From positions 1-64,000 of the forward strand of contig JASHQI010000034.1 of the NCBI GenBank assembly GCA_030037645.1: 64,000 nucleotides of DNA. Reading direction: 5' to 3'. The position numbers and the translations under genes were made by a program. Below, in pieces: positions 46,406-50,338 of this stretch. This DNA comes from Xanthobacteraceae bacterium (GTDB lineage: Bacteria > Pseudomonadota > Alphaproteobacteria > Rhizobiales > Xanthobacteraceae). The notes beneath the pieces were generated by a model. It was not told the DNA's origin. It did not search any database and saw only the letters and a program-made list of their open reading frames with translations. How positions within the stretch are numbered: the first letter of the stretch is position 1; every line of letters begins with the position of its first letter.

Positions 46406-47533
46406 TCAGGGCGCCCGGGGCGGCGAAAACGGCCACGATGGTGTTTCCCCCACCTGTCCGCGCTGACGCAGATAATGATCGGCAATCACGCATGCCACCA
46501 TAGCCTCGCCGATCGGTACCGCGCGAATGCCAACGCAAGGATCGTGGCGCCCGGTCGTCGAGATTTCGGTCTCATGACCGTAACGGTCGACGGTGCGGCG
46601 CGGAATGAGAATCGAGGAGGTAGGCTTGACCGCAAAACGCGCCACCACAGGCTGGCCGGTCGAAATGCCGCCAAGAATCCCCCCGGCATTGTTGGACAAA
46701 AAGACTGGCTTGCCATCGTTGCCCATGCGTATTTCGTCGCCATTCTGTTCGCCGCTGAGCTCGGCTGCACCGAAGCCGGCACCGATCTCGACGCCTTTCA
46801 CAGCATTGATGCCCATGAGTGCCGCGGCAAGATCGCCGTCGAGCTTGCCGTATATCGGCGAACCGAGGCCGGCCGGCACACCATCGGCTACAACCTCGAT
46901 CACCGCGCCAATCGAAGAGCCACGTTTACGGACGCCGTCCAGATATTCGGCAAAAAACTTGGCCTTGTCGGCATCCGGACAGAAGAAGGCATTGCGGTCG
47001 ACCTCGGCCCAATCCCAGCGTGTCCGATCAATTCGATGCGGCCCCATCTGCACGAGTGCGCCGCGGACCGCAAGGCCAGGAACCACCTTGCGCGCGATGG
47101 CGCCGGCAGCGACACGCATCGCCGTTTCGCGAGCCGACTGACGGCCGCCGCCGCGGTAGTCGCGCAAGCCGTATTTGACGTCGTAAGTATAATCGGCATG
47201 GCCGGGACGATATTTGTCCTTGATGTCGGAGTAATCCTTCGCGCGCTGATCGACATTATCGATGATCAGCGCGATCGGCGTACCGGTGGTCACTTGCATC
47301 CCGGCTGCCTCGTCAAGAAACACGCCCGAAAGGATTTTGACCGCGTCCGGCTCCTGCCGCTGCGTGGTGAAGCGCGATTGGCCGGGCCGCCGCCGATCGA
47401 GGTAGGGCTGGATATCGCGCTCGCTGAGCGGTATCCGCGGCGGGCAGCCGTCCACCACGCAGCCGATCGCAGGACCGTGGCTTTCGCCGAAGGTCGTGAC
47501 GCGAAACAAATGTCCGAATGTATTGAACGACAT
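46406..47533 (-). CDS. aroC: chorismate synthase
   Basis: 375 residues from the ATG at 47533 ([20 protein letters not shown]). The ORF-track start at 47566 adds 11 residues that are not family-like. It converts 5-enolpyruvylshikimate-3-phosphate to chorismate with reduced FMN, the last common step of aromatic amino acid synthesis. The three family signatures are visible: [32 protein letters not shown] with [10 protein letters not shown], and the C-terminal region [10 protein letters not shown] / [12 protein letters not shown]. It is the first gene of a minus-strand run with ribB (36 bases on) and ald. Confidence 0.97.
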
Positions 47534-47982
47534 GGCTGGACATGCTGGCGCGATAACGACGCGCAACGACGCGCAATGGCTTTCAGGCGCGTTAGGCTTG
47601 GTTAGCCCGCGCCTAGCATCGGGTCAAATACTGCGGCCACCCAATGTCCGGCGACCTTTACCGCCGTTCTCGCGCTGCAACAGAATTCCGCGGACGGCTC
47701 TGAATGCAGCGATAATCGTCCAATCAATTGAACAGGCGTGGACGTGCCTGACCGCCTGCCGTTCATGCCACATTCATCTCGCTGAACAATGGTTAATAAA
47801 AACGTGAATATCCGTTAACATACGGAAAAATAAAGGTTATTTTCGCTTTTTTCGTTGCGGCATACGCCGTTCTGTGCCATCGTTGACAACGGTAAGGGGG
47901 GCGAAAGCCCAGGGAACGCAACAATTCGCGGAGCTAGAACTCAACCCTACCGTCGTTTCAACACCGAACAAGGACGCAAGCC
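47534..47982. other. AT-rich intergenic region with leader of a short transcript
   Basis: About 450 bases ahead of the 14-codon ORF. 47780-47860 is unusually AT-rich for this genome (stretches such as TTAATAAAAA and GGAAAAATAAAGG), a typical promoter setting. A TTGACA occurs at 47883-47888, though no good -10 follows at 17 bases. The stretch 47895-47935 (GGGGGGCGAAAGCCC with flanks) can form a compact GC hairpin with a GAAA loop, suggesting a structured leader or small RNA. Confidence 0.35.
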
Positions 47983-48027
47983 ATGGCGAAGAAGCCGAAG
48001 AAGAAGATGAATAAGAAATCGAAGTAA
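47983..48027 (+). CDS. 14-residue lysine-rich micro-ORF
   Basis: ATG at 47983, stop TAA at 48025. The product is MAKKPKKKMNKKSK, nine Lys of 14 residues. AAGGAC nine bases upstream is a plausible ribosome site. It is too short for the ORF track. It may be a tiny nucleic-acid-binding peptide, or a leader peptide in a regulatory RNA in which lysine codons matter. All eight AAG/one AAA codons are Lys, which is unusual by chance in this GC-rich genome. Two intrinsic terminators follow downstream, so it forms its own transcription unit. Confidence 0.5.
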   Translation: MAKKPKKKMNKKSK

Positions 48028-48108
48028 CTGACGGTTGCGCACGCTTCATACTGAGGCAGCGCCGTCAACTTCGGATTTTGCGAGGTGCCTGCAGTGGTGC
48101 CTCGAGGG

Positions 48109-48144
48109 AACGGCCGGACCGATGTCCGGTCGTTTCCATTTTTT
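48109..48144 (+). terminator. strong intrinsic terminator
   Basis: 11-bp stem AACGGCCGGAC / GTCCGGTCGTT (one G-T pair) with a CGAT loop, followed by TCCATTTTTT. It lies about 80 bases after the stop of the micro-ORF. Confidence 0.8.
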
Positions 48145-48161
48145 GCGACAAAGCCATTCGG

Positions 48162-48192
48162 CGGCCGAACGCAAGTTGGGCCGTTTTTGTTT
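48162..48192 (+). terminator. second intrinsic terminator in tandem
   Basis: CGGCCGAAC / GTTGGGCCG (one mismatch) with a GCAA loop, followed by TTTTTGTTT. It lies 18 bases beyond the first terminator and would catch read-through. Confidence 0.7.
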
Positions 48193-48316: not shown

Positions 48317-50338
48317 ATGGTTACGGTCATGCCGGACGAATCGGGAGACGCGCCACTATCAGTACAATCCGGTGATCACCTCGAATACGCTCGACTGCTC
48401 CGCCAAGTCGATCTGTTCTCCGGCCTCGATCGCGTCACACTGGCCAAGCTCTCGGCCCATCTACAACCGCGGTCCTACGCGGCGCACGCTGTCATTTTCC
48501 GTCAAGGGGACGCAGGCGACGCCTTTTATTTGGTGGCGAGCGGGTCGGTCGGCGTGTACGCCATCGATCGGACCGGCGCCATCGAGACACGGGTGAAGGT
48601 ACTTCATTCAGGCGAGCCGTTCGGCGAAATGGCTCTGCTCAGCAACATCCCACGGACTGCCAGCATCAAGGTCGAGACCGACTGCGAGGTGCTGCGCCTC
48701 GATCGCAACAGCTTCATCGAACTGGTCCGTCAAGAACCGAGCGTGGCGCTGGCGATTGCGGCGACACTCAGCGGTCGTCTCGCGGCCATGCTTGATCAGC
48801 CTCGCGGCACGTCTGCCGACACCCTGGATGACGCGCAGCCTTCACAACCGAGCCCCGTCCGCGACGGCAGCCCGACCACCGACCAAGGCAAAGCAGCGGC
48901 AGCCGCGGCTGTAACCGCGGTCGCCCGGCGGCAATGGCCGCCCGGCCGCACCGTCATCGCACTTGCCGCCGCCGTTGCTATCTTTGCACTCGGCTGGACG
49001 GTGTCTCCGCCACATGGGCTGACCTCGGTCGCGTGGCACGGGCTCGTGGCACTTTTGGCGATTCTGCCGGCGTTGGTGCTCGACGCGCTGCTTGAAGGCA
49101 TCCTGGGGCTCCTGCTCGCCTGCGCATGGGTACTCTCCGGGGTGACCAGTGCCAGCGAAGCGCTTTCCGGCTTTGCCACCGCCAGCTGGGTCCTGGTTGT
49201 CTGCGTCCTCATTATCGGTGCGGCGATCACGCAGACCGGCGTGCTCTACCGGCTGGCGTTGGAAACCATCACCCATATGCGCGGTGGATTCGTCGGCGAG
49301 GCGACCGCCTTGGCCTGCGCCGGGCAAATCTTGGGCCCAGCGGTGCCGAACGCTACCAGCCGCATCATCATCATTGCGCCAATGCTGCGCGAACTCGTCG
49401 ATGCCTTGGGCTATGCGCCGAAATCCAAGGGTGCGGCAGGCCTCGCGATGGCGGTATTGATCGGCTTCGGCCAGATGGCCGCGACGACGCTGACCAGCGC
49501 CACCACATCCGTCCTCGTCGCCGCGGTGCTACCGGCGCAAGTGCGCGGCAGCATCAATTGGATCACCTGGACGATCTATGGCGCGCCGTTCAATCTCATC
49601 TTGTTCGTCGGCACCATGGGCACGATCCTATGGTGCTACCGCCCACCCTCCGGCCGGAGCCAGCCATCGAGCGAGCGAGCCAAATCGCTGGAGTTGCAGC
49701 GCGCGTTGCTCGGACCGATGTCGAGGGAGGAGAAAGTCGCGTTGTGGGTGGGCGTTGGGCTTCTGACTGGCTTCGTCACGCAGCCGCTGCACGGTATTAA
49801 TCCGGGGTGGGTGGCCGCAATCGCGGTGGGGGTGCTTTCTGCGACCCGCGTCATAACCGCCAACACGCTACGCGCGGTCAATTGGAATTTTGCCCTGTTG
49901 TTCGGCATCCTCATTAGCCTGGCAACGGTATTCGGGCATAGTGGGCTCGATCGCTGGGTTGCGGGTCGCGTAGCCGGTGTCATGGGTGATTTAGCATCGT
50001 CGCGGGTCGCCTTCGTCGTGGTCCTGGCGCTGTTCTGCTTCGCCGTGAGTTTCGTTGTGCGCTGGCAAGCGGCTGCACCCCTCGTCACCATTGCGCTGGC
50101 GCCGGTCGCCTCGGCGTCGGGCATCCATCCTTTTATCGTCGGCCTAATCGCCGTGATTGCCTGCAACGGTTTCTTCCTGCCCTATCAAAGCACGACTTAT
50201 CTGGCGCTCGACGCCGGCACCGGTCGAGCGCTATTCACCCATGCGCAGGCGACGGCCACCGCAATCGCGTTTGCCGTGTGGACCGTCATCGCGGCGGCGC
50301 TGAGCGTCCCGGTCTGGCACTTGATGGGGTTGATGTAG
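48317..50338 (+). CDS. cyclic-nucleotide-binding domain fused to SLC13/DASS-type anion transporter
   Basis: 673 residues. About 20-155 is a Crp-type cyclic-nucleotide-binding (cNMP) domain: LFSGLDRVTLAKLSAHLQPR, GDAGDAFYLVASGSVGVY, and the phosphate-binding cassette FGEMALLSNIPRTASIK, which keeps the Gly-Glu and Arg needed for ligand contact. After a low-complexity linker, about 205-673 form many hydrophobic segments of the divalent anion symporter/citrate-type (ArsB/SLC13) fold, with the ATALACAGQILGPAVPNATSRIIIIAP and VRWQAAAPLV regions as the two re-entrant loops. It should be an inner-membrane carboxylate or sulfate carrier whose activity is tuned by a nucleotide. The start could also be the ATG at 48329. 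Confidence 0.87.
   Translation: MVTVMPDESGDAPLSVQSGDHLEYARLLRQVDLFSGLDRVTLAKLSAHLQPRSYAAHAVIFRQGDAGDAFYLVASGSVGVYAIDRTGAIETRVKVLHSGEPFGEMALLSNIPRTASIKVETDCEVLRLDRNSFIELVRQEPSVALAIAATLSGRLAAMLDQPRGTSADTLDDAQPSQPSPVRDGSPTTDQGKAAAAAAVTAVARRQWPPGRTVIALAAAVAIFALGWTVSPPHGLTSVAWHGLVALLAILPALVLDALLEGILGLLLACAWVLSGVTSASEALSGFATASWVLVVCVLIIGAAITQTGVLYRLALETITHMRGGFVGEATALACAGQILGPAVPNATSRIIIIAPMLRELVDALGYAPKSKGAAGLAMAVLIGFGQMAATTLTSATTSVLVAAVLPAQVRGSINWITWTIYGAPFNLILFVGTMGTILWCYRPPSGRSQPSSERAKSLELQRALLGPMSREEKVALWVGVGLLTGFVTQPLHGINPGWVAAIAVGVLSATRVITANTLRAVNWNFALLFGILISLATVFGHSGLDRWVAGRVAGVMGDLASSRVAFVVVLALFCFAVSFVVRWQAAAPLVTIALAPVASASGIHPFIVGLIAVIACNGFFLPYQSTTYLALDAGTGRALFTHAQATATAIAFAVWTVIAAALSVPVWHLMGLM

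Follow-up and report, generated by a model that had tools for sequence, protein, structure and literature searches.

Layout of the gap next to aroC

The window, a 64,000-nt stretch of DNA from a bacterium of the Xanthobacteraceae, carries aroC on its minus strand and, separated from it by 783 bp, a plus-strand ORF (48317–50338) coding for a cyclic-nucleotide-binding domain fused to a sodium:sulfate/DASS transporter (CRP-DASS). An earlier note on this DNA had described the interval 47780–48192 as a free-standing short transcript, together with an AT-rich stretch, in a gap of about 780 bases. The interval does lie inside the 783-bp gap, and the AT-rich stretch is present. The features recognised are the following (window coordinates, strand in brackets).

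46406–47533 (−): aroC (chorismate synthase), divergent neighbour; Pfam PF01264, 433 bits; start codon at about 47533
47762–47819 (+): direct-repeat array TTCAT-N6-TTCAT-N5-TGAAC-N5-TTAAT-N7-TGAAT-N5-TTAAC, from alignments and a pattern scan
47820–47854 (+): A/T-tract spacer, judged from its sequence a possible UP element or curved DNA
47855–47883 (+): predicted core promoter, −35 TTGCGG, 17-nt spacer, −10 CATCGT, from comparison
47890–47952 (+): 5′ leader stem-loop CGGUA-GGG...CCC-UACCG, which contains the GGGCGAAAGCCC hairpin, from folding and comparison
47970–47974 (+): Shine-Dalgarno sequence AAGGA, 8 nt before the ATG
47983–48027 (+): micro-ORF, MAKKPKKKMNKKSK, 14 aa, side-chain charge +8, from sequence and comparison
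48029–48104 (+): 3′ UTR with two hairpins (48029–48067 and 48081–48104), from the consensus fold
48106–48144 (+): intrinsic terminator 1, hairpin 48106–48137 and T-run to 48144, from folding and consensus
48160–48188 (+): second terminator-like hairpin (terminator 2; 48160–48183) with T-run to 48188, a back-up terminator, from folding

A DNA search of 61 relatives matched this region in many members of the genus, and in an alignment of 11 loci the promoter region, the leader, the ORF start and the terminator were all conserved. Comparison thus supports a short gene with its own promoter, structured leader, lysine-rich ORF and terminator, and on these comparative grounds the micro-gene at 47983–48027 is real and independent.

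The promoter of the micro-ORF loci has the form TTGCGG-17-CATNNT, and most micro-ORF relatives keep a spacer of 17 or 18 nt together with CATNNT or AATNNT. Another candidate, TTAACA-17-TATTTT (47815–47843), was discarded: it overlaps the direct-repeat array, and TTGCGG-17-CATNNT is better conserved. Transcription is predicted to start near 47890, a position that coincides with the 5′ stem of the leader, and the array lies about 70–128 bp before this predicted start.

Alignments of the upstream element took in 22 micro-ORF loci, 10 loci with a repeat protein and 6 with a Pls-type synthetase (see below). Common to all of them is TGAAC-N5-TTAAT-N7-TGAAT-N5-TTAAG, usually preceded by TTCA repeats and followed by A/T tracts, the spacer keeping ACGGAAA.AT...TTTTT. 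By its layout the array looks like direct repeats of the OmpR-family type, and it is probably the site of a regulator. Sites of the OmpR-family protein CenR of Rhodobacter sphaeroides are TGA-N8-TGA direct repeats (PMC9275681). Like them, the array consists of direct repeats that lie ahead of the −35 box at intervals of about one helical turn, whereas its half-sites and spacing (TGAAC-N5-TTAAT) are different. One exact copy of the element is found in the source genome. A second array, with 2 mismatches, is located at G000:C268:174-209 (L132); its downstream side reaches the contig end, and no lysine-rich gene was seen near it.

The lysine-rich frame and the RNA that carries it

The ORF has the 14 codons that the earlier note gave it, but eight lysines in MAKKPKKKMNKKSK rather than nine. 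A lysine-rich ORF stands behind the region in every genus relative that has the region (e.g., MATKKKKAKKKSK, MASKPKKKKKMKK and MAATKKKSKKKKMPKK); frame, start and ribosome site are kept in the relatives, with an AGGA-type site ahead of nearly all homologous ORFs. Across Xanthobacteraceae relatives its length ranges from 9 to 22 codons. Upon scanning 41 element-defined regions for ATG ORFs of 9–25 codons with at least 40% Lys, 23 were found to contain one, 144–218 nt past the start of the element, the background in dinucleotide shuffles being about zero. Lysine occupies 185 of the 311 codons of 22 such micropeptides (94% of them AAG), and 20 of the 22 have a side-chain charge between +8 and +10 while differing in sequence. 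Their pooled pN/pS of 0.60 is supportive of constraint, which is only modest. As far as these sequences tell, charge is conserved more than sequence.

Tandem copies provide, from the sequences compared, the best evidence that the ORF is the conserved thing. Some genomes have two or four copies of it. At locus L043 (1681–2190), four MAKKKSKKK ORFs, with Ser written as AGC or TCC, share one promoter and one terminator; at L077 (3500–3750), MAKKMKKKAKKKK occurs twice in one operon with different flanks; at L055 (6800–7480), the complete unit is duplicated, including element and promoter, ORF and terminator. The micropeptide has no signal peptide, and the best reading of MAKKPKKKMNKKSK is that of a putative cytosolic micropeptide.

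Size, charge and cytosolic location would also fit a micro-protein that associates with ribosomes or nucleic acid through a specific binding site, in the manner of bTHX and bS22, which are very small basic ribosomal proteins. We consider this unlikely: it is the charge that is conserved and not the sequence, many genera of the same family do not have the gene, and elsewhere the same promoter drives exported proteins.

The leader folds at −23.7 kcal/mol (z −2.7), and in the 11-sequence genus alignment (A1) 94% of the cells of its stem are paired. The earlier note had singled out the GGGCGAAAGCCC hairpin, which is indeed present at 47899–47910 but is not conserved in itself; it forms the inner arm of the larger 5′ stem. 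Taken as a conserved GGGC-GAAA-GCCC tetraloop hairpin, it has only 77% of its cells paired and was rejected as such. Covariation in the leader stem was absent from the genus alignment, but the same stem with altered, still paired bases occurs in the distant loci L029, L036 and L075. Past the ORF, the 3′ UTR hairpins can be recognised in many genus relatives and are weak alone (z −1.1 for 48029–48100). Both of the tandem terminators that had been proposed exist as hairpins with T-runs, but only the first is generally conserved. Terminator 1 is strong (−25.9 kcal/mol, z −5.2), stands behind the stop codon in almost every relative and, in the consensus fold, has several stem pairs changed on both sides in a compensatory way. 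Terminator 2 folds at −16.7 kcal/mol (z −3.2), and most relatives have none at that place; a second similar terminator is also found in L008 and L014.

The choice between small RNA and micro-gene, which the earlier note had left open, falls on the micro-gene. That the functional product is a structured sRNA (about 255 nt), the micro-ORF being incidental or serving the control of the RNA, would be in line with a predicted transcript whose fold is much more stable than those of shuffled sequences (z −4.5) and with the conserved 5′ stem and 3′ hairpins. Rfam 15 covariance models gave no match at gathering score in the interval, and a permissive search only a chance one (E 3.2), although a new sRNA would give none either. 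Nevertheless, the surrounding RNA diverges, whereas the lysine-rich frame is retained along with its start and its ribosome site. Furthermore, the four ORFs of L043 use synonymous Ser codons ahead of a single terminator, and in other genera the same promoter precedes long coding genes. We therefore regard an RNA-only product as quite improbable.

Neither did a role as leader peptide of a regulatory RNA, also suggested earlier, hold up. A lysine-rich short ORF followed by a terminator does recall attenuators such as trpL, with their short ORF rich in one residue. Attenuation through the lysine codons would act on a downstream gene, but the relatives offer no co-directional target: the next genes there, gpmB and fabI, lie on the strand opposite to the micro-gene, and a plus-strand CRP-DASS gene follows it in the source genome only among the loci compared. 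In addition, the unit is ended by its own strong terminator, and an ORF duplicated serially is not attenuator anatomy. On these grounds, the leader-peptide role is not supported, and we give it very little credence. In the source genome, the fusion ORF separates the micro-gene from gpmB and fabI.

As an independent micro-gene, the locus can be compared to rreB of the Bradyrhizobiaceae, reportedly described by Hahn and co-workers in 2017 as a small mRNA for 14 amino acids with GTG as its start codon and a Shine-Dalgarno sequence of 17 nt. Both would be free-standing alphaproteobacterial small mRNAs encoding 14 residues, but 47983–48027 has an ATG and a plain AAGGA instead of the GTG and extended Shine-Dalgarno sequence that rreB is said to have. 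Searches of open-access literature found no description of the locus, of lysine-rich small proteins in Rhizobiales or of Pls in this group, and a paper on Bradyrhizobium sORFs makes no mention of lysine or aroC.

Genes behind the element

A 37-base pattern of the element, searched for exactly in 257 Gb, had 33 matches, 31 of them in Xanthobacteraceae. The two others (L057 and L076, titled Crocinitomicaceae and Paceibacterota) look, from their sequences, like chance matches, and there is no lysine-rich micro-ORF at either. All 31 family matches adjoin aroC and diverge from it. Assigned from ORF composition on MAG contigs, the products behind them are a micro-ORF in 18 cases, an exported lysine-repeat protein in 5 and a Pls-type enzyme with adenylation domain in 4, the remaining 4 being cut by contig ends; one of these contig-end cases (L070) was resolved as a repeat protein by means of L041. 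By this assignment, every family element that can be resolved drives a polycation gene, of one of three product classes.

R1, a sequence model built on the upstream part, gave matches in 36 of 200 genomes of the family, distributed over 15 of 46 genera. In a 298-genome sample of the order it matched, under strict filters, the source genome only, the family members listed for this sample being ones that do not have the element. Among 289 genomes of the class there was one match, in G776, apparently at the same place as L076. This match (L137, G776:C134:5839-5875), a perfect one in a distant alphaproteobacterium, is built from an internal repeat, TGAACCTCGGTTAA; the same place being titled Paceibacterota in another collection, a mislabelled or contaminated assembly is suggested.

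The repeat proteins appear to start with a signal peptide (recognised by eye), contain repeats such as DLSAAKKKAKKSKAKAKKASEL and have, in five examples, net charges of +19 to +43; neither Pfam nor NCBIfam gave a match for them. As to the synthetases, the element-linked enzyme of L066 has 1400 aa and matches TIGR02353 over residues 673–1367 with 694 bits (cut-off 423). Its domain matches are AMP-binding, PP-binding and hexapeptide only, without condensation or thioesterase domain, and hydrophobic segments lie near 712–739, 898–929, 945–979, 1161–1187 and 1191–1220. By family match, domains and membrane segments, it is a synthetase of the Pls/PosA family. The specificity region aligned best to a dimodular NRPS (8g95/8g97) and to the epsilon-poly-L-lysine synthase 7wew (104 bits), others scoring about 60 or less. 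Characterised members of the Pls/PosA family make cationic homopolymers (PMC8117764, PMC9606270), and by analogy the element-linked enzymes would make a cationic product. What the micro-gene has in common with such synthetases is the promoter, which in Pseudorhodoplanes and further genera precedes the gene of a TIGR02353 enzyme; the micro-gene differs from them in that its product would be made by ribosomes and measures 14 aa.

Mapping product type on an AroC tree showed the micro-ORF form to be clustered (4 changes, against a mean of 16.5 when shuffled) and the Pls form to occur in two separate places. In a supported Pseudorhodoplanes clade, one genome with a repeat protein is sister to two with Pls. 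The sister relationship, together with the pattern on the tree, indicates that one and the same promoter has come to drive different types of product. The types are not strictly exclusive, because the source genome also has an unlinked Pls/PosA-type gene (G000:C296:9237-11159; L098, L131; 559 bits), and no element was found in the 3.7 kb upstream of it.

The position of all 31 family matches beside aroC could mean that the element is simply the aroC promoter, the adjoining lysine-rich genes being coincidental. Against this, aroC has a promoter-like site of its own near 47602–47627 (TTGACC-N16-CTAACC, seen by eye in the sequence), and in L055 a second copy of the element precedes the second micro-ORF. 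About half of the sampled genera have no element at aroC, and there the lysine-rich gene is absent too. When 30 regions upstream of aroC were taken from across the family, 13 had the element and all 13 were followed by a lysine-rich ORF or Pls; among the 17 element-free regions, a lysine-rich ORF was found only in L113, which has half an element. Finally, in G069 the element lies with a Pls gene at 1.91 Mb of contig C1, far from aroC at 0.93 Mb. Because product types switch within Pseudorhodoplanes and the element of G069 accompanies Pls away from aroC, we conclude that the element belongs to the polycation gene; a mere aroC promoter seems to us hardly credible.

Interpretation of the locus

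The reading that we favour, and consider rather probable, is that of an independent micro-gene whose lysine-rich peptide acts by its charge and which is one variant of a Xanthobacteraceae polycation locus defined by its promoter. A putative regulator probably binds the direct repeats at 47762–47819, and transcription, probably beginning near 47890, would yield an mRNA of about 255 nt made up of a 5′-terminal stem-loop, the AAGGA site, the 14-codon ORF and the strong terminator. It is by its charge of +8, and not by its sequence, that the micropeptide would act, serving as counter-ion to an anionic polymer; such a polymer could be RNA (or ribosomes), DNA, polyphosphate or the envelope on its inner side. 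Sister lineages use this promoter for exported lysine-repeat proteins or a Pls/PosA-type synthetase instead.

Three unrelated routes thus lead to a polycation. This suggests that what the locus provides is positive charge as such, and it is for this reason that we read the micro-gene as a regulated source of such charge. A stronger form of this reading, that one orthologous promoter has had its product exchanged among micropeptide, lysine-repeat protein and cationic homopolymer while the output, charge, serves one shared physiological role, is more tentative, and we would put it at somewhat under an even chance. Its main weakness is a possible difference of compartments: a signal peptide is present in the repeat proteins but absent from the micropeptide, and the Pls enzymes are of membrane type, so that the products may act in different places and do not have to serve a common function.

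The locus is of wider interest than a single-sequence view could show, the swap of products across genera being visible only upon comparison. No earlier link between Pls and micropeptides was found. The biological role of polycationic homopolymers such as epsilon-poly-lysine in bacteria has been stated to be unclear (PMC9606270), and a promoter that keeps a polycation as output while swapping the route to it would be a direct genetic handle on that role. Candidate functional equivalents without protein homology can be found by comparing promoters instead of proteins, and evolutionary evidence can make the case for micro-genes of 9–22 codons that annotation misses. Within the exported class, a variant of the repeat protein (L052:3001-3600, and L030, reverse strand, about 1700–2080) carries two Cys per repeat, as in AAKKKPTAAACKKNPKLKGCAKM, the others being plain Lys/Ala.
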